Source: Chitinophaga pinensis (GTDB taxonomy: Bacteria; Bacteroidota; Bacteroidia; Chitinophagales; Chitinophagaceae). Taken from it: 64,000 nt of DNA. The position numbers were made by a program, and so were the translations under genes. The notes beneath the pieces are model-generated. The model saw only the letters and a program-made list of their open reading frames with translations, made no database searches and had not been told where the DNA came from. Positions 54,228 to 64,000 of this stretch are shown here, in pieces. The stretch's first letter is position 1. The number at the start of each line of letters is the position of its first letter. The stretch covers positions 62,001 through 126,000 of the forward strand of contig CAMAXV010000003.1 of NCBI GenBank assembly GCA_945862385.1. The letters are read 5' to 3'.

Positions 54228-55598
54228 ATGTTTGCAGTAGTAGATATAGAAACAACAGGAGGTAATGCCGGAACCGGAAGTATAACTGAAATAGCCATTT
54301 TGATTACAGATGGCCAGCAGGTTCTTGACAGGTATACCACGCTCGTAAATCCTTTGCGCCCGATTCCACTTTTTGTAGAAAAACTGACAGGAATCAATGA
54401 CGCCATGGTAAGCAAAGCCCCTGTTTTTGCTGATGTGGCACGTGAAGTTTATGATTTACTCCAAGGTAAAATTTTTGTTGCCCACAATGTAAATTTTGAT
54501 TTCTCATTCATTGCACATCAGTTGCAGCAACATGGATACCAGCTTCAGTCTCGAAAACTATGCACAGTCAGGCTTAGCCGGAAAATATTTCAGAATTTGC
54601 CGAGTTATAGCCTTGGAAACCTTTGTCGCTCGCTGGAAATACAACTCACAAACAGACACAGGGCTTTGGGTGATGCGGAGGCAACAACATTGTTATTTCA
54701 TAAATTGCTGAACAATGACACCGGAAAGCATATTGACAGTATGCTTAAGAAAGGCAGCAAGGAAGCCTACCTGCCTATGCATTTATCAGGTAAAGATTTA
54801 GACAAGATTCCCAATGTTCCCGGCATTTACTATTTTCATGACAACAAGGGTAAAATCATCTATGTTGGCAAAGCCAAACAATTGAAAAAAAGGGTAATCA
54901 GTCATTTTTCCAATAATGATGTGAGCAAACGTAAGCAGGACCTAATCAGGCTTGTTCACAAAATAAGTTATAAAGAATGTGGTAATGAACTGATGATGAG
55001 TGTTCAGGAAAGTGTCGAAATCAAAAGAATATGGCCACAATTTAACCGATCGCAAAAAAAGTTTGAAAACAGATTTGGCATCTGCAGTTATGAAGATCAG
55101 AAAGGCATTTTAAGGCTTGGTGTTGTTAAAAAGAAGAAACACATCAAAACACATACCACATTTGCCATGCAACTTGACGGCATCAGGTTGTTGAATAAGC
55201 TCGCAAGAGAACATGGATTATGCCCAAAGATGTGCTTTTTACAACTGGAACATGTAGATTGCCAGGGACAAGTGGAGTCATTTTGTTCAGGCATTTGCGA
55301 CGACAAAGAGCATACTACTTCCTACAACAACAAAGTCTTATCAGCCATTAATGCTATGGTGAGTGATTCTCCAAATCTTGCTGTATTCGGACCAGGTAGA
55401 AAGCTTACAGAACTTAGCTGTATCATGATTGGGAGAAATGATTTCCTGGCTTTAGGATTTGTTTCCCATCATGCCTTAAAAATGAAAAAAGATAAACTGG
55501 AAAAACAACTCTCAGCTGCTGCCTCTAACGAATTTATCAGGTCAATGGTTTTAGCTTATGCAGATAAAAATCCTGCACTGACAGTTGTCTTTAATTGA
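54228..55598 (+). CDS. DnaQ-like 3'-5' exonuclease fused to UvrC-type GIY-YIG nuclease
   Basis: A 456-residue fusion. Residues 1-165 are a DEDDh exonuclease with Asp6 and Glu8 (VDIETTGG), Asp91 (NFDFSFI), His144 and Asp149 (HRALGDAEA). Residues about 195-275 are a GIY-YIG nuclease of the UvrC/Cho type (GIYYFHDNKGKIIYVGKAKQLKKRV). The remainder resembles the middle region of UvrC-like proteins and has a Cys-rich segment (CPKMCFLQLE...CSGIC). The same fusion is known in other bacteria, including mycobacteria; the role is presumed DNA repair. Both active sites look complete. It is 44 bases behind the eRF1-like gene but has its own promoter. Confidence 0.9.
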   Translation: MFAVVDIETTGGNAGTGSITEIAILITDGQQVLDRYTTLVNPLRPIPLFVEKLTGINDAMVSKAPVFADVAREVYDLLQGKIFVAHNVNFDFSFIAHQLQQHGYQLQSRKLCTVRLSRKIFQNLPSYSLGNLCRSLEIQLTNRHRALGDAEATTLLFHKLLNNDTGKHIDSMLKKGSKEAYLPMHLSGKDLDKIPNVPGIYYFHDNKGKIIYVGKAKQLKKRVISHFSNNDVSKRKQDLIRLVHKISYKECGNELMMSVQESVEIKRIWPQFNRSQKKFENRFGICSYEDQKGILRLGVVKKKKHIKTHTTFAMQLDGIRLLNKLAREHGLCPKMCFLQLEHVDCQGQVESFCSGICDDKEHTTSYNNKVLSAINAMVSDSPNLAVFGPGRKLTELSCIMIGRNDFLALGFVSHHALKMKKDKLEKQLSAAASNEFIRSMVLAYADKNPALTVVFN

Positions 55599-55890: not shown

Positions 55891-55917
55891 GGTGTTTTAA
55901 ACACTTGAATAGTTATG

Positions 55918-55992
55918 TGGAACATACTGGGCTCGAACCAGTGACCCCTACTCTGTCAAAGTAATGCTCTAAACCAACTGAGCTAATGTTCC
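55918..55992 (-). tRNA. tRNA-Val (GAC)
   Basis: A 75-base cloverleaf on the minus strand. The 7-bp acceptor stem GGAACAT/ATGTTCC is perfect, the D arm has GCTCAGTTGGTTTAGAGC, the anticodon stem is TTACT/AGTAG with loop TTGACAG (anticodon GAC), and the T arm has TTCGAGC. The discriminator is A and CCA is not encoded. It reads Val codons GUC/GUU. Confidence 0.92.
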
Positions 55993-58710: not shown

Positions 58711-61200
58711 TTAATTGATGAGTTGAAATTCAGGATGCAAAAGCATTGCCCAGTAAAAATCTTCGATTCCTGATGCACCCGCTGGTTGTCCGATTGTACC
58801 CAAAGCCACTTTGATTTCAGCTGCCGTTGGTGGTCTACCGATTGCCCTGTTGTAGAAAATGGTAACAAGATTCTTACCCGAGTGACCAGACTGCAGCCAT
58901 TTTTGGGCACCCAGTTTGAGGGTTTGGTGCAACCTTTGTCCATTAGTCATTTCCATAGCCTGCAACAAGTTAGCATGAGATTCCCTGGAAGTTGTTACGG
59001 TCTCTCTTGTGGGTCGACCCAGTGCAAGCAGCAATGGATTATTGGCAACCAAAGCAGCCCTGACCACTACTGCACCCGATGGTAATGCTGTGAATGCAGC
59101 TGGCAGATATTTCAGCTCTTTGTAACCAAAAACTGAATCAACCAGCATGGATGCAGCATCAGTAAACTGTTCTGCTGTCATTCGTTTTACCAGTACGCCC
59201 CTAAAGCGAAAATCATTGGCAAACAAATCCTCAGGCTGTTTTAATCCGTCTGCAGGAAGCCTGTAAGTTCTGGAACTGGCAATCATACGGATTAGCCATT
59301 TCAAGTCCGAGCCATTTTGCTGAAAATTGAATGCGAGCCAGTCTATCAGATCACGACTCCATGGTGTATTATCCATCTGGTCTACGGGTTCAATAATTCC
59401 CCTGCCCATCAATTGCTTCCAGACCCTGTTTACGATTGTTCTGTACAACCTGCCATTCTCAGGTTTTGTCATGATCTTCGCCAGTTGCGCCATTTTCCTT
59501 GCGCGTGTGGCCATGCTGTCTATGGATCCGAGCTCTTCCCATAGCATTTTGGGACGAACATACTTTCCTGTGGGTTGGTCGCATCGGTGGATTTCCAGGG
59601 AACTATCTGCGAATACGTTGGCCATTCCATAGGCATCGGTCAGCTGCCAGTTGTTGATAAAACTGTTGTGACATGAAGCACATTTCAGATTCAGTCCGAG
59701 GAAAACCTGTGCCACATTCTGGGCAGCCTGCATTTCTGTAGTCTGACTGGCATTGACTACACCCCTCCACCTGATACCTGATACAAAGCCTTTAGATTCA
59801 TCAGCCGGACTTATCAGCTCCTCCACAATTTTTTCATAAGATTTATTGTCTCTGACAGACTTGTAAAGCCAATCTGTAATGCTATATCTGCCGCGTGTAA
59901 TGTACCCGGTTCCGGTATAATCATTACGCAGCAAATCATTCCAGAAAGTCAGCCAGTGTATGGCATAATCATCCTGACGTGAAAGCAACTCTTCAACCAA
60001 TTTTTCTACTTTATCAGCTGCAGTATCCCTGACAAACCGTGTCTGTTCCTCAGGTGTTGGCAACAGTCCGATCAGGTCAAGGTACAATCTCCTCACGAAC
60101 ACCTGTTCATCAGCTACTGCTGGCCAGGACAATTTATTTTCGCTGAAATATTGATCAACCCATTGATCCACAGGATTAGAGAAATTTGAGGTATTGACAG
60201 GCAAAGCAGGGTTACGCGGAGCCAGAGGTGCAACCTTAAATGTAGATTGTGCATCTCCGTCTGGCCAGGGAGCGCCTTTATCAATCCATAAGGAAAGGAT
60301 TTTTACTTCCTTTTCAGACAAACGTTTTCCTTTTGTGGGCATGGCATCCTCATCACCAGCAGGCAGTTTAACCCTTCTGATTAGCTCACTTTCCAGGGAA
60401 TTACCAGGGATGATAACCGGTCCGCCTTCGCCCCCCTTCAGCAACATGTCTTTGATATCCAGCCTCAGATCACCTTTAACTTTATCAGAACCATGGCACT
60501 TGTAGCAATTATGAGCCAATATGGCCCTGGCTTCCACGCTTAAAATTCTCTCCTGATCTGGAGTCAGACCTATCGCGGAATCTCCTGTTTTTTCAGCTAT
60601 AGCTGAAAGATTCAGCTGCTCACTTTTACTGGTGAAGAGTTTATCAAGATAACCTTCCCCATGCGTAAGCGAAGCTCCTGCGTGACCTGTATACAGCGCG
60701 GCAAACATGCCCACAAAAAAAGAAATCCTGTAAAAATCAATAACTAGTTTTTTTGAGGAAGCTAAAGCCTTCGCATGTAAATACAGACTGACCCATGAAA
60801 GCAGAGATGAAATGATTGCACCCTGAAAATGGATATCAAGCAAGTTGCTGCCATAATCTCCATTACTGCCCAAGAGCGCACCGAAAGCGACTGATAAGAC
60901 CAGTGAAAAAATAAGCACATAAAGGAGGAGTAGCATCGCCAGTCTATATCCGGAATGGAAATTTTTCCATGAGGCTACTTCCAGAACAACTCCGAATAAC
61001 ACCAGCCCTATAGGTAAGTGAACCATCACGGGATGCAGTACTCCCCAGTTTTGAAGCCAGGTTAACCTGACTGCCTCACCTAATCCCAGCCAGTTTTGAT
61101 GTACAAAAATGGCAAAAAGCAGTGCTGCAGTTACCAGTAAAGTAGTCAGGATAAACAGAGTTTTACCTGTCAGGATTTTTTCAATACGGCTGTTCGTCAA
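58711..61200 (-). CDS. membrane-module/PSCyt1/DUF1549/DUF1553 fusion protein
   Basis: An 829-residue protein that joins, in one chain, modules which the first cluster keeps in separate genes. A membrane module of the DUF2231 type (about 1-185) has HPVMVHLPIG at 56-65 and GHAGASLTHGEGY at 172-184. The haem motif CYKCH (232-236) is followed by IIPGNS and MPTKGK. DUF1549 (about 340-520) has a second CASCH (507-511). DUF1553 follows, with RTIVNRVWKQLMGRGII and SRTYRLP. The soluble part should be periplasmic. It heads the second cluster; 94 bases upstream are free of genes. Electron transfer between membrane and periplasm is inferred from the motifs. Confidence 0.87.
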   Translation of the reverse strand: MTNSRIEKILTGKTLFILTTLLVTAALLFAIFVHQNWLGLGEAVRLTWLQNWGVLHPVMVHLPIGLVLFGVVLEVASWKNFHSGYRLAMLLLLYVLIFSLVLSVAFGALLGSNGDYGSNLLDIHFQGAIISSLLSWVSLYLHAKALASSKKLVIDFYRISFFVGMFAALYTGHAGASLTHGEGYLDKLFTSKSEQLNLSAIAEKTGDSAIGLTPDQERILSVEARAILAHNCYKCHGSDKVKGDLRLDIKDMLLKGGEGGPVIIPGNSLESELIRRVKLPAGDEDAMPTKGKRLSEKEVKILSLWIDKGAPWPDGDAQSTFKVAPLAPRNPALPVNTSNFSNPVDQWVDQYFSENKLSWPAVADEQVFVRRLYLDLIGLLPTPEEQTRFVRDTAADKVEKLVEELLSRQDDYAIHWLTFWNDLLRNDYTGTGYITRGRYSITDWLYKSVRDNKSYEKIVEELISPADESKGFVSGIRWRGVVNASQTTEMQAAQNVAQVFLGLNLKCASCHNSFINNWQLTDAYGMANVFADSSLEIHRCDQPTGKYVRPKMLWEELGSIDSMATRARKMAQLAKIMTKPENGRLYRTIVNRVWKQLMGRGIIEPVDQMDNTPWSRDLIDWLAFNFQQNGSDLKWLIRMIASSRTYRLPADGLKQPEDLFANDFRFRGVLVKRMTAEQFTDAASMLVDSVFGYKELKYLPAAFTALPSGAVVVRAALVANNPLLLALGRPTRETVTTSRESHANLLQAMEMTNGQRLHQTLKLGAQKWLQSGHSGKNLVTIFYNRAIGRPPTAAEIKVALGTIGQPAGASGIEDFYWAMLLHPEFQLIN

Positions 61201-61294
61201 ACTTTGGGAATTAGAACAATGAATTTACTAAATTCAAAGGAAATTCAACAAAAATTATACTGCGTTGCACATTGCCTAAGCTATTAAACTTTTG

Positions 61295-61540
61295 CTAATC
61301 CAAGCTAAAAGTTACTGCAACATCTCCCGAACCCAGTGCTTCCTTTAATCCAGCTGTATGCTCAATCCTGCCGATTCTGGTATAGGCATAGCGGGTATTG
61401 AATGTTTCATAAAAAATAACCAGCGTAGACGTACCGTAAAGCATAATATCTCCAACTTTTATTATTCCAGGATTGGAAGCCTTTGCTGGAAGACTTACAG
61501 GCAGGTCAGCATACTTTTCATTTGCATTGAGCTCAATCAT
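61295..61540 (-). pseudogene. 5'-truncated cyclophilin-like domain gene
   Basis: The 81-residue frame reads IELNANEKYADLPVSLP, GDIMLYGTSTLVIFYETF, YTRIGRIEHTAGL and GSGDVAVTFSLD. This is the last two thirds of the small bacterial cyclophilin-like domain (Cyclophil_like type). Full-length members carry about 35 more residues before the LNGNEKYGDLP-like motif. Here a stop lies four codons upstream, and no other frame within 150 bases resembles the missing part. It is either a remnant or a real short protein started at the ATG at 61540. Confidence 0.55.
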
Positions 61541-61718
61541 GTCAAGCTTTAGTTAATTGTTTTTTATCGAAATTTATATTTCGCATTTGATATCTGCCAC
61601 TTGTAGGAAAACCAGTTAAAATACGCAACTGAAAAAAAGGAATAATAAAAATATTCCCCCTTATTCTTACCATAAACCATTGTAATGATAGAACTTACTG
61701 GTGTAAAACTGAACAACC

Positions 61719-62458
61719 ATGTCTTCCGACTACAACAAAATTGCAGATGAATACAAGTATTCCAAGTCGTTGCCGTGGCGAAAATATCTGGAAGCACATA
61801 CACTATATAAAATAGCAGGTGACATTTACGGCAAATCTGTGCTGGACCTTGCCTGTGGGGAGGGGTTTTATACCCGCCTTTATAAATTAAAAGGCGCATC
61901 GGAAGTAGTGGGAATTGACCTTTCAGAGCAAATGATTACATTGGCTATGGAAGCAGAAAAAGTGGATCCCTTATACATAACCTATTTTGTAGGGAATGCG
62001 TTGGACCTTGATCTGGGTAGACAATTCGATTTGATTTCAGCATCATATTTGTTGAATTATGCTGAAAATGAATCCCAGCTGCAAACCATGTGTAATATAA
62101 TTTCCCAACATTTGAAACCCGGAGGGAGATTTGTCACCATCAACAACAATCCCGAATGCAAACACCCGGAAATATCCATGCGGAAATATGGTTTTGAACG
62201 GGTCCAAAAGGGATTTGATGATGGAGATGAAGTGATTTATAAACTTTACTCTCCAGACCAAAGCTATGTGGAACTTACCAATTACCACCTTTCCGGCAAA
62301 TGCATGAAAGATGTATCAAGGCAGCCGGATTAACCAACACAAATTGGCACAGCATGGAAATATCACCAAATGGCGCTTCACTTTTTGAAGAAACGCATTG
62401 GCAAGACTTGCTAAAGTGCGAACCCGTGATTGGTATCTCTTGCGCCAAAAAAGATTAA
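61719..62458 (+). pseudogene. SAM-dependent methyltransferase interrupted by a frameshift
   Basis: Residues 1-190 from the ATG at 61719 are a class I methyltransferase: SVLDLACGEGFYTRLY (motif I), VVGIDLSEQMI, and FDLISASYLLNYA. The frame then ends at 62333 after a short non-matching tail. In another frame, from about 62300 to the stop at 62456-62458, the sequence continues as MHERCIKAAGLTNTNWHSM and then GIS-CAKKD. This is the expected C-terminal end of the family (an ER--KAAGF-like helix, then W, then IIGI-C-K). Adding one base in the AAA run near 62298-62300 would restore one chain of about 247 residues. It is a recent mutation or a sequencing error; the substrate is unknown. Confidence 0.7.
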
Positions 62459-62620
62459 AAAGTCTGCACTTGGGGTTTATCAATACCTTGTTCACAAGGA
62501 ATCCAACTGCTAAATAAAGAAAACTAAACTTTATGCCTGAAATAAAATCCCCCAAGTTTTGAGGTTAATCCCGATTTTTCCGACTTTAAAATATAAACGT
62601 AAAACATATACAGATTAAAA

Positions 62621-62646
62621 TAAAAAAGGTCACTTTTCAGTGACCT
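62621..62646 (-). terminator. terminator hairpin within repeat copy 1
   Basis: An 8-bp stem (AGGTCACT/AGTGACCT, loop TTTC) at 62627-62646 followed by a T run on the minus strand. Duplicate of the tRNA-Val terminator at 63007-63026. Confidence 0.7.
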
Positions 62647-62651
62647 CTCAG

Positions 62652-62671
62652 TGGGAGTTGACGGGATCGAA
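62652..62671 (-). pseudogene. tRNA-Val 3' end fragment
   Basis: Twenty bases identical to the 3' end of the tRNA-Val gene at 63032-63106, starting in the T loop (TTCGATCC). The rest of the tRNA is missing, so it is a remnant of duplication or integration. Confidence 0.85.
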
Positions 62672-62724
62672 TGCAGACGCTTCGGTCTGCACCCAGACAT
62701 CCCGCCATGTCGGGATCGTCTGGG
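62672..62724. repeat. double hairpin behind the GIY-YIG gene
   Basis: Two adjacent strong inverted repeats. One is TGCAGAC/GTCTGCA with a 6-base loop (62672-62691). The other is a 13-bp stem with a one-base bulge (CCCAGAC-ATCCCG with CGGGAT-C-GTCTGGG, 62692-62724). They start 9 bases past the GIY-YIG stop and end exactly at the tRNA fragment. G+C content is far above the surroundings. Confidence 0.85.
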
Positions 62725-62732
62725 CCGCCCTA

Positions 62733-62987
62733 TTAATTTGTTGAATGTCGATTGATAAAATCCTCTATTCGCTTCACGCCTGTTATGTTCTTTAATTTTT
62801 GCTCTAATACCAGCGCCTCTGATCTGCTCTCAACTGTTGTATGCCAAACCAAAACCCATGGCACATACCTTGATGTAGATTTCTCTTCTCCATTATTATG
62901 CTCTTTGATCCTACGCGCAAGATCAGACGTCTGGCCCTTGTAATACAAACCCGATTTTTCCGACTTTAAAATATAAACGTAAAACAT
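62733..62987 (-). CDS. GIY-YIG nuclease family protein
   Basis: An 84-residue single-domain GIY-YIG protein (YhbQ/UPF0213-like). MFYVYILKSEKSGLYYKGQT holds the first two motifs, RRIKEH has the catalytic Arg around 25-26, and SEALVLEQKLK has the metal Glu62. The start is the ATG at 62987, inside the 102-bp repeat and 45 bases past the tRNA-Val 3' end. The frame is open further upstream, but that extension would be read through the tRNA. Such small genes recur next to tRNA and rRNA genes in Bacteroidota; host function unknown. It is probably part of a mobile or recombining unit. Confidence 0.85.
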   Translation of the reverse strand: MFYVYILKSEKSGLYYKGQTSDLARRIKEHNNGEEKSTSRYVPWVLVWHTTVESRSEALVLEQKLKNITGVKRIEDFINRHSTN

Positions 62988-63051
62988 ATACAGATTAAAA
63001 TAAAAAAGGTCACTTTTCAGTGACCTCTCAGTGGGAGTTGACGGGATCGAA
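62950..63051. repeat. 102-bp direct repeat, copy 2
   Basis: Perfect copy of 62570-62671 at a distance of 380 bases. This copy is continuous with the intact tRNA-Val gene and the intact GIY-YIG gene. Confidence 0.95.
63001..63026 (-). terminator. Rho-independent terminator of tRNA-Val
   Basis: An 8-bp stem (AGGTCACT/AGTGACCT, loop TTTC) at 63007-63026 followed by TTTTTTA on the minus strand, 6 bases after the tRNA. Confidence 0.85.
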
Positions 63052-63106
63052 CCGCCGACCCTCTGCTTGTAAGGCAGATGCTCTAAACCAGCTGAGCTAA
63101 ACTCCC
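63032..63106 (-). tRNA. tRNA-Val (TAC)
   Basis: A 75-base cloverleaf on the minus strand. The acceptor is GGGAGTT/AACTCCC, the D arm GCTCAGCTGGTTTAGAGC, the anticodon stem TCTGC/GCAGA with loop CTTACAA (anticodon TAC), and the T loop TTCGATC. The discriminator is A and CCA is not encoded. It reads Val GUA/GUG. Confidence 0.93.
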
Positions 63107-63325
63107 AAACGGGTTGCAAATATAGGAACTGAAATTAATATGACAAAATAAATTGAAATTGAATTTATAATTATTTTCTCAACCAAATTAATATAGTGAC
63201 GTGCATGCTATCAAAGTATTTCATCCAATTATCAATTAAAAAATTGCTGAACGAATCATAAGGATTAATGTTATATCTCTCTAAGATAGATAAAATCTAT
63301 TCCGGCAACACATTTAGGGAATGAA

Positions 63326-63357
63326 TTTGGAAGATGATTTAAAATTTTGTAATTTTG
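63326..63357 (+). promoter_or_regulatory. Bacteroidota promoter of the nitroreductase gene
   Basis: TTTG at 63326-63329, a 20-base spacer and TAATTTTG at 63350-63357 match the consensus fully. The ATG is at 63381, giving a leader of roughly 15 bases. The rest of the gap from 63107 shows no gene. Confidence 0.65.
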
Positions 63358-63380
63358 ATGTTTAAACATTGACACAAGAC

Positions 63381-64000
63381 ATGAACAACAACTTTTTAGA
63401 AGCTTTTGAATGGCGTTATGCTACCAAAAAAATGAACGGACAGGAAATTCCGGAGGAAAAGCTGAATGATATTCTGGATGCTATCAGGCTGAGTCCGAGC
63501 TCACTGGGCTTCACACCCTACACCATCCTGGTAATTAAAGACAAGGAGACAAGAGAAAAACTGCTTCCACATTGTTACAATCAGTCTCAGATTACAGCAT
63601 CCTCAGCGGTGATTGTTTTTGCTGCCTGGAAAAACTTCAACACAGAACAGGTTGATAAATTTATGAAAGAAATTGCGGAGACGCGCAACGTTCCGCTCGA
63701 ATCCCTGGATGGATTTGCCGCCAACATCAAAGGAAAAATCAATAATTCAACACCAACAGATTTGGAAATATGGGCAGCGAAACAAACCTATATCGCGCTC
63801 GGGTTCGGAATAGCTGCCGCCGCTTTAAGCGCTGTTGACGCCACACCCATGGAAGGCTTTAATCCTGCTGGTGTAAGTGAAATACTTGGCCTGGAAGAAA
63901 AAGGTATGACTGCTGCCTGTATTCTTGCACTCGGCTATCGGGATGCGGCAGCTGACTTTCTTGCCAATGCAAAAAAAGTCAGGAGAAAAAAAGAAGAACT
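63381..64000 (+). CDS. NAD(P)H-dependent nitroreductase family protein, 3' end missing
   Basis: 206 codons are open to the window edge. The sequence starts MNNNFLEAFEWRYATKKMNG and contains RLSPSSLGFTPYTILVI (FMN contact region), WAAKQTYIALGFGIAAAA and MEGFNPAGVSEILGL. This is the NfsB-like nitroreductase/dihydropteridine reductase group, about 210 residues long, so only a few residues should be missing. It is a flavoenzyme that reduces quinones or nitro compounds with NAD(P)H in the cytoplasm; the physiological substrate is unknown. Confidence 0.9.
   Translation, partial: MNNNFLEAFEWRYATKKMNGQEIPEEKLNDILDAIRLSPSSLGFTPYTILVIKDKETREKLLPHCYNQSQITASSAVIVFAAWKNFNTEQVDKFMKEIAETRNVPLESLDGFAANIKGKINNSTPTDLEIWAAKQTYIALGFGIAAAALSAVDATPMEGFNPAGVSEILGLEEKGMTAACILALGYRDAAADFLANAKKVRRKKEE

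Follow-up and report, generated by a model that had tools for sequence, protein, structure and literature searches.

The tRNA-Val/GIY-YIG locus analyzed here is probably a member of a widespread family of minimal tRNA-gene insertion elements, homing-like and of the rescue type, with predicted cleavage and transfer. Comparative analysis at the sequence level demonstrates a small GIY-YIG gene lying between both parts of a split tRNA and in the orientation of that tRNA, in two mirror forms: either the gene follows the tRNA and the 3′ part is displaced, or the gene precedes the tRNA and the 5′ part is displaced. The same comparison documents the splitting and rebuilding of the tRNA genes, presence and absence of the unit, tandem arrays, a nuclease kept intact, and palindromes at the junction in most of the scored loci. 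Since a copy of the displaced tRNA part is present, one intact tRNA remains. The family is real, recurrent and, as far as the literature was searched, undescribed: no such units in bacterial chromosomes appeared in the titles or abstract openings among the matches listed (subscription papers and preprints fall outside this coverage).

The window, a stretch of 64,000 nt (G000:C3:62001-126000), belongs to a 3.07 Mb genome with 33 tRNA genes. Read on the minus strand, the locus comprises an intact tRNA-Val(TAC) (63031..63106), a terminator, a GIY-YIG gene (62733..62987), two hairpins, and a second repeat copy. The tRNA was assigned as the rebuilt host gene on the basis of ARAGORN, the repeat boundary, and empty orthologous sites in relatives. 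The insertion point falls between 63052 and 63051, which corresponds to tRNA positions 55|56 at the start of the T-loop. From here the left (functional) copy of a direct repeat (62947..63051) spans tRNA positions 56-76, the terminator, and the first GIY-YIG codons, and the right (displaced) copy (62567..62671) spans the same tRNA positions, the terminator, and ∼12-13 codons of a truncated second GIY-YIG gene. The two copies (105 nt, 99% identity) lie 380 nt apart from start to start and contain a single mismatch, at 62569, leaving a perfect 102-bp repeat at 62570-62671. The whole 380-bp unit (62672..63051) is delimited by this repeat spacing and by the empty sites. The tRNA bases directly before the insertion point, GGCGG, are repeated ahead of the hairpins as a short left arm (62725..62729), a feature found in 4/4 same-genus Val elements. 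Hairpin 1 (CCCAGAC..GTCTGGG with an inner ATCCCG..CGGGAT; 62692..62724) is followed by hairpin 2 (TGCAGACCGAAGCGTCTGCA; 62672..62691), the end of which is the exact start of the displaced T-loop; all of these features are on the minus strand. The DNA fold of both hairpins has a z-score of -2.81 over 96 nt, and that of the 68-nt hairpin stretch is -3.35, with 0/200 shuffles as good. The truncated second gene copy most plausibly represents the remnant of a shortened tandem array.

Each of these components (the 380-bp unit, its perfect 102-bp repeat, the intact tRNA-Val(TAC), the GIY-YIG gene, and the two hairpins) had been named in a first-pass annotation of this DNA and was recovered, as was its placement of the repeat boundary in the T loop; counted on the sequence, the repeat begins at tRNA position 56, the first T-loop base. 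Its statement that an integrase is absent also held, in that the ORF list of 60000-64000, from which only the GIY-YIG ORF was run against family libraries, places no integrase-sized ORF within the unit, which holds, and has room for, only the GIY-YIG gene. In our view, a 128-aa ORF (62733-63119) with its start inside the tRNA is a reading-frame artefact, and the protein starts at the Met at 62987. Two further observations concern the surroundings on the plus strand. At 61719-62458, a methyltransferase-like ORF (204 aa, by eye) overlaps a subsequent 52-aa ORF that is in a different frame, and this gene may be frameshifted. At 54819-54941, a GIY-YIG domain occurs in a 456-aa frame, presumably of the DnaQ-exonuclease type judging by its length, ∼1 kb from tRNA-Val(GAC) (55917-55992).

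The protein encoded by the unit has 84 aa with its catalytic residues intact, and matches PF01541 (E 3e-16), with a weak match to T5orf172 and none to a transposase family in Pfam. Residues Y5, Y16, G18, R26, H30, and E62 are invariant in 16 sequences from different lineages. Among the four Val-lineage genes dN is 0.12-0.33 while dS is saturated, indicating that the nuclease has been kept under purifying selection. Among solved structures, the closest in sequence are the UPF0213 proteins 1zg2 (E 1.1e-6) and 1ywl, which likewise consist of a single catalytic domain; in the material searched, no mention was found of UPF0213 linkage to tRNAs. Length and family suggest that the 84-aa protein is a lone catalytic domain, with hardly any room for a DNA-binding domain. 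In a tree of 89 proteins (74 columns, poorly resolved), at least 45 isotype changes are required, compared with 61 or more, and 67 on average, in 300 shuffles, and 17 changes between the 3′ and 5′ classes compared with 28.8 in shuffles; isotype fidelity is thus real but leaky. Relatives were sought in IMG/VR (none confirmed), in a plasmid collection (none), and in a phage collection (two weak matches of 36.5% identity, in two Listeria phage records), and a phage or plasmid vehicle is unsupported by these collections.

We searched for PF01541 in 40 genomes (that of the window and relatives) while disregarding tRNAs, and took 55 short-frame regions, leaving out long-frame matches (UvrC-type, DnaQ-type, and others >250 aa); 24 of the 40 genomes are same-genus relatives, so the resulting counts are not independent events. 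A second sample consisted of the best 80 of 469 loci from a collection of 84,980 species, and is centred on the Val lineage because a four-sequence Val alignment served as the query. After removal of duplicates (L136 and L137, of L055 and L060), of genes with a domain score <35 or an ORF >250 aa, and of L082 and L087, which gave no match to the profile, the final set comprised 151 short GIY-YIG genes in 128 loci. A tRNA lies within 250 nt of 94 of the 151 genes, and in all 94 cases on the same strand; when restricted to genes flanked on either side by 350 nt or more, the count is 83/117, and the chance expectation from tRNA number and genome size is ∼1%. The linked tRNAs represent 18 named isotypes and one unassigned, in taxa ranging from Bacteroidota to Patescibacteria. 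In the second sample, tRNA-linked loci occur in Bacteroidota isolates (Mangrovivirga, Marinigracilibium, Maribacter, Marivirga, and Aestuariivivens), in many groups of Patescibacteria, and in Chlorobiota, Margulisiibacteriota, Acidobacteria, Poribacteria, and Methylomirabilis, most of the loci being from metagenome bins. The gene follows the tRNA in 57 of the 94 cases and precedes it in 37; the first-pass annotation, which described a small element at tRNA 3′ ends, was therefore correct but too narrow, given this second class at tRNA 5′ ends.

In the class at tRNA 5′ ends, the GIY-YIG reading frame runs into the tRNA before it stops in 17/37 loci (e.g., L038, L065, L067, L069, L203, and L208), and in nine loci it ends exactly at tRNA position 10 (the TAG of U8-A9-G10). 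With the stop codon inside the tRNA, RNase P processing would strip it from the mRNA. For the remaining 57 of the 151 genes, the nearest tRNA, if any, is more than 250 nt away, and some of these genes are at contig ends or in later array units; no tRNA was present anywhere in the stretch for, e.g., L039, L052, L077, L142, L151, and L153. A separate GIY-YIG subfamily, with no tRNA in the stretch, is formed by L052 (G026:C7), L051, L050, and L039. The L052 gene lies midway in a REP-like array of paired hairpins (ATGCCGAA..TTCGGCAT / ATCCCGAA..TTCGGGAT, with GTCAT ends), and by eye short REP-like-looking stretches occur near the genes of L051, L050, and L039.

The rebuilding of the tRNA is evidenced by partial copies on the far side of the gene. 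This test omitted one of the 94 linked genes (tRNA type unassigned); the other 93 are spread over 88 loci, with a pair of GIY genes in five of them, and counts were taken from the 88 of these 93 genes for which the far side extends 250 nt or more. In the 3′ class, a copy of part of the neighbouring tRNA is present beyond the gene in 40/52 cases, 35 of which reach the tRNA 3′ end, and in the 5′ class in 28/36, 23 of which start at the 5′ end. Control tRNAs without a GIY gene gave a partial copy in 2/64 (3′ test) and 2/71 (5′ test), and the coordinates of all four positives identify them as real neighbouring tRNAs. When whole tRNAs are excluded, the counts become 38/52 and 27/36, and those of the controls 0/64 and 0/71; a whole second tRNA of the same kind lies beyond the gene in L140 (Asp), L143 (Asp), and L209 (Pro). 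Measured against the controls, each class thus duplicates precisely the part that the insertion would sever. For 20 of the 88 tested genes there is no second tRNA part, and 14 of these 20 are from Patescibacteria groups. A single tandem duplication followed by deletion, which the first-pass annotation considered the simpler alternative, can explain the truncated second gene of the window but not the 68/88 with a matching tRNA part, and as the whole story it is ruled out by recurrence (the 94/151 linkage along with these matching parts).

Further evidence comes from orthologous sites, compared using one genome per species. Whole tRNA-Val(TAC) genes occur in 25 of 41 genomes of the genus, with cut-off ones in two more (G018 and G041); the search gave 39 matches including other tRNAs, and the 25 were counted from the listed places. 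A GIY gene lies behind tRNA-Val(TAC) in four of these genomes. One Val locus lies between the same genes in all four genomes concerned; the unit is present there in G023 and G008 and missing from G021 and G024, and in the filled site the downstream ORF is 363-369 bp farther away. These are the empty sites in close relatives that the first-pass annotation had called for, and the variation it expected among relatives is borne out both by empty and filled orthologous sites and by arrays of differing length. The site sequence reads ...GGCGG|TTCGATCCC... and the junction GGCGG|TTCGATCC; the displaced copy continues into the downstream flank of the empty site, and the intact tRNA of the filled site is identical to that of the empty one. 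A second Val locus, next to a nitroreductase gene, is filled in G000 and G010, and in G042, G051, G015, and G047 it has no GIY gene. Among the Val sites, G017 and G048 are not scorable as empty, their contigs ending 55 and 14 nt past the tRNA. For Lys, after a shared set of upstream genes, G009 carries the unit twice and the site next to the tRNA is empty in G050 and G052; the G054 sequence stops at tRNA position 56. For Asp, again after common upstream genes, the unit is present in G009 and G045 and missing from G007, G018, and G005.

The sequence that follows the two tRNA copies bears on the origin of the rebuilt part. Compared together with their terminators, the left and right copies of the four Val elements are 0.93-1.00 alike within a host and 0.33-0.83 alike between hosts, whereas a donor-carried rescue predicts a foreign left copy and a native right copy. 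Over up to 30 nt after the tRNA in 34 loci of the 3′ class, 16 pairs are at least 0.9 alike, 15 are <0.45 alike (one of them, L141, differing only by a 2-nt shift), and three are between. The intergenic DNA of these species looked highly diverged, and this pattern may stem from gene conversion, from target duplication, or from parts brought in by a donor.

Hairpins were scored in 63 of the 68 loci with a matching tRNA part. On the broken copy, a palindrome on the junction side is significant against dinucleotide shuffles in 41/63 at p ≤ 0.05 and in 28/63 at p ≤ 0.01, and 22/63 junction regions have no significant hairpin; hairpins thus recur beside GIY-YIG genes at other tRNAs, a point on which the first-pass annotation had staked its reading in advance. 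Two palindrome cores, TCCCGA..TCGGGA and CCTGCCTGCCGGCAGGCAGG, recur in unrelated lineages, the second of them being shared by Bacteroidota and a Sungbacterium (L194). In the Val/Phe double hairpin the inner stem occurs as ATCCCGAC/GTCGGGAT, ATCCGCC/GGCGGAT, and TTCCGCC/GGCGGAA, such that both sides change and the pairing is kept (folds with z of -3.4 to -5.6). Among the loci read, palindromes lie in the T-loop (Val, Glu, Phe, and Leu), in place of or beside the anticodon arm (Pro, Arg, Lys, Asp, and Met), or in the D-loop (Arg and Leu of the 5′ class). The T-loop as the site, proposed in the first-pass annotation, therefore describes the window, but the D-, anticodon-, and T-arms are all used elsewhere. 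In several lineages, a short tRNA stretch from just upstream of the junction precedes the palindrome.

Across 41 genomes, two palindrome patterns occur at 0-5 and 0-8 sites per genome. Of 76 sites, 74 were examined (G055:C157 and G051:C112 were left out): 46 are within 400 nt of a tRNA, 23 are within 400 nt of a GIY gene, and 23 are near neither, including a distinct repeat of G043. In the window genome, all six TCCCGAC..GTCGGGA sites are beside tRNA-Phe, tRNA-Lys, or a second short GIY gene on contig C34, the product of which is similar to the Lys-linked protein of G009. No match was obtained in 395 genomes of the phylum with a long composite T-loop/palindrome pattern, which was too strict to inform.

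Units without a GIY gene are also present. Two occur after tRNA-Leu with an 89-bp period (L264), and in the window genome there are two before tRNA-Phe with a 42-bp period (L217) and two after tRNA-Lys (L216). Tandem pseudo-tRNAs of 93-94 bp, likewise GIY-less, lie behind a Ser tRNA (L290) and between Ser and Pro tRNAs (L294). In the window genome, 7/33 tRNAs have a nearby partial copy other than another tRNA, and hairpin-bearing pseudo-tRNAs precede the Met and Asp tRNAs. Arrays that contain GIY genes have periods of ∼334 (L075), 354 (L076), 396 (L079), 383 (L080), and 387 (L138). There is also a Poribacteria locus (L163, 1332-2476) in which 11 near-identical tRNA-Pro-like units with a 107-bp period, each with a hairpin in place of the anticodon arm, lie upstream of the GIY-YIG gene. 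Of 55 genes, 19 lie within 400 nt of a contig end compared with 3.5 expected, an excess that arrays would give. Individual contigs end at tRNA position 56 (Val in G018:C161 and Lys in G054:C15) or 45 (Lys in G001:C110), at or next to the start of the displaced copies in filled relatives.

For the proposed insertion element, we envisage the following cycle. The nuclease would break DNA at its own palindrome or at the tRNA loop, and the broken end, carrying tRNA sequence, would then recombine with an intact copy of the tRNA. Recombination with the sister chromosome would add units and thereby produce arrays, and recombination with incoming DNA or with another tRNA gene of the same isotype would insert the unit and rebuild the tRNA. 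The choice of target would come from the tRNA homology that the element carries, by which means an 84-aa nuclease lacking a DNA-binding domain could stay fairly isotype-faithful. That the nuclease moves the unit, as the first-pass annotation had supposed, is what we infer from these features. The element looks selfish, given that in the arrays read it is mostly broken tRNAs, rather than intact ones, that are multiplied.

Several other explanations account for part of these observations. In classical homing, the nuclease would cut the uninterrupted tRNA loop on an element-free chromosome and repair would copy the element in, with the carried tRNA part acting as the rescue. The empty and filled orthologous sites are consistent with this, as is an anatomy that is the same as that of fungal mitochondrial mobile ORFs with replacement C-termini, as described in the accessible part of PMC3630166, and so are the strongly different terminators in 15 of the 34 loci of the 3′ class (L141 included), as a donor-carried part would give. 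We nevertheless consider this explanation rather unlikely: the rebuilt Val tRNA is identical to the empty one, so that a nuclease cutting the plain tRNA would cut its own locus too, with nothing visible to protect the donor, a catalytic domain of this size on its own is small for a sequence-specific homing enzyme, and the hairpins and GIY-less satellites are left unexplained. An unlikelier origin is as a passive by-product, in which template switching at the palindromic arms of tRNAs makes truncated copies and a captured GIY-YIG gene hitch-hikes on the tRNA promoter. GIY-less pseudo-tRNA units do exist, and hairpins sometimes replace the anticodon arm of the tRNA itself; against this stand the linkage to GIY genes, which is invariably on the same strand, the purifying selection acting on the nuclease, identical palindrome cores in distant taxa, and the GIY-free control tRNAs, which lack partial copies apart from real neighbouring tRNAs.

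In type III toxin-antitoxin systems, repeats act as RNA decoys. By analogy, the pseudo-tRNA repeats could serve as decoys for a nuclease that attacks one particular tRNA, or the gene encoding it, and both the repeats ahead of the GIY-YIG gene (11 in L163) and the partial isotype fidelity would fit; such a pair is nonetheless very improbable, since neither promoter nor 5′ end is present in 3′-class fragments, few of the loci read have large repeat arrays, UPF0213 is the family of the nearest solved proteins, and empty sites exist for each isotype examined (Val, Lys, and Asp). We give still less credence to a host device for tRNA dosage, in which GIY-driven amplification would raise tRNA copy number as SegB does for phage tRNA. 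Whole second tRNA copies in L140, L143, and L209 are in keeping with such a device, as is the amplification of tRNA-Tyr by SegB reported in the available text of PMC13096335, but the other arrays read multiply broken tRNA copies while one intact tRNA stays.

A cut at the hairpin followed by homology-guided repair, as in the cycle proposed for the insertion element, would escape both objections to plain homing, namely self-cutting and the small size of the protein. A more general and more tentative version of this proposal is that these are bacteria-wide minimal mobile elements in which the nuclease need recognise only the junction hairpin, the carried tRNA sequence picks the target isotype and the D-, anticodon-, or T-arm, and the GIY-less hairpin/tRNA fragments are satellites. 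If the hairpin is what is recognised, tRNAs may be parasitised because they offer the best conserved homology between species.

Among known systems, the fungal mobile ORFs offer a close parallel. In the portion of PMC3630166 available to us, mitochondrial endonuclease ORFs supply the gene with a substitute C-terminus, the native one being left downstream, as in atp6 of Allomyces and atp6, atp9, cox2, and nad3 of Glomus, the atp9 ORF being a GIY-YIG. Common to both are an endonuclease ORF within a conserved gene, an end rebuilt by a carried copy, and a native end displaced downstream; those systems are mitochondrial and reside in protein genes, as opposed to bacterial tRNA genes with an 84-aa nuclease. 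As far as that source can be compared, only the bacterial units have a mirror 5′ form, junction palindromes, tandem arrays, and GIY-less satellites. A second comparison is with SegB, a larger protein than the 84-aa nuclease. According to the part of the source available, SegB is a free-standing GIY-YIG nuclease of T-even phages that causes break-driven tandem amplification at tRNAs (PMC13096335). Both nucleases are GIY-YIG and co-located with tRNA genes of many isotypes, microhomology between the tRNA and the 3′ end of the nuclease gene is another likeness, and the tandem arrays of the bacterial units may likewise arise by breaks and recombination. Unlike the bacterial units, which have no confirmed IMG/VR or plasmid relative, SegB is phage-borne, and its main text (PMC13096335), to the extent available, names no hairpin or inverted repeat and describes no displaced tRNA part.

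The first-pass annotation had drawn an analogy with REP/RAYT pairs, in which RAYT is an HUH tyrosine transposase. This analogy holds for the anatomy only, in that a nuclease gene lies beside palindromes and, as with REPINs, there are non-autonomous palindromic repeats; it fails in that the palindromes number 0-8 per genome and are concentrated at tRNAs, and the nuclease is a GIY-YIG with no HUH transposase. REP-type repeats are abundant and dispersed, with over 100 copies per genome in the available part of PMC2817692, and membership in RAYT/REP as outlined in the accessible text of PMC2817692 and PMC3116915 is ruled out by the few palindromes per genome and the family of the nuclease. The units also resemble integrative elements in having a restored tRNA 3′ end and a partial copy at the far side, but have no integrase, measure only 380 bp, and are also found at tRNA 5′ ends. 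Integrative elements that target tRNAs use a tyrosine recombinase, restore the tRNA 3′ end, and leave a partial copy at the far side.

tRNA genes are classic landing sites for mobile DNA, and an integrase would be expected in an element that inserts into them. In several bacterial phyla, an 84-aa nuclease seems to suffice when combined with a hairpin and a segment of the tRNA. Should this hold, it would explain many of the GIY-YIG genes found next to tRNAs, arrays of truncated tRNAs, and assembly breaks at tRNAs, and would extend the rescue-type homing logic of fungal mitochondria to bacterial chromosomes. At 380 bp, the system is small enough for self-copying to be tested directly.
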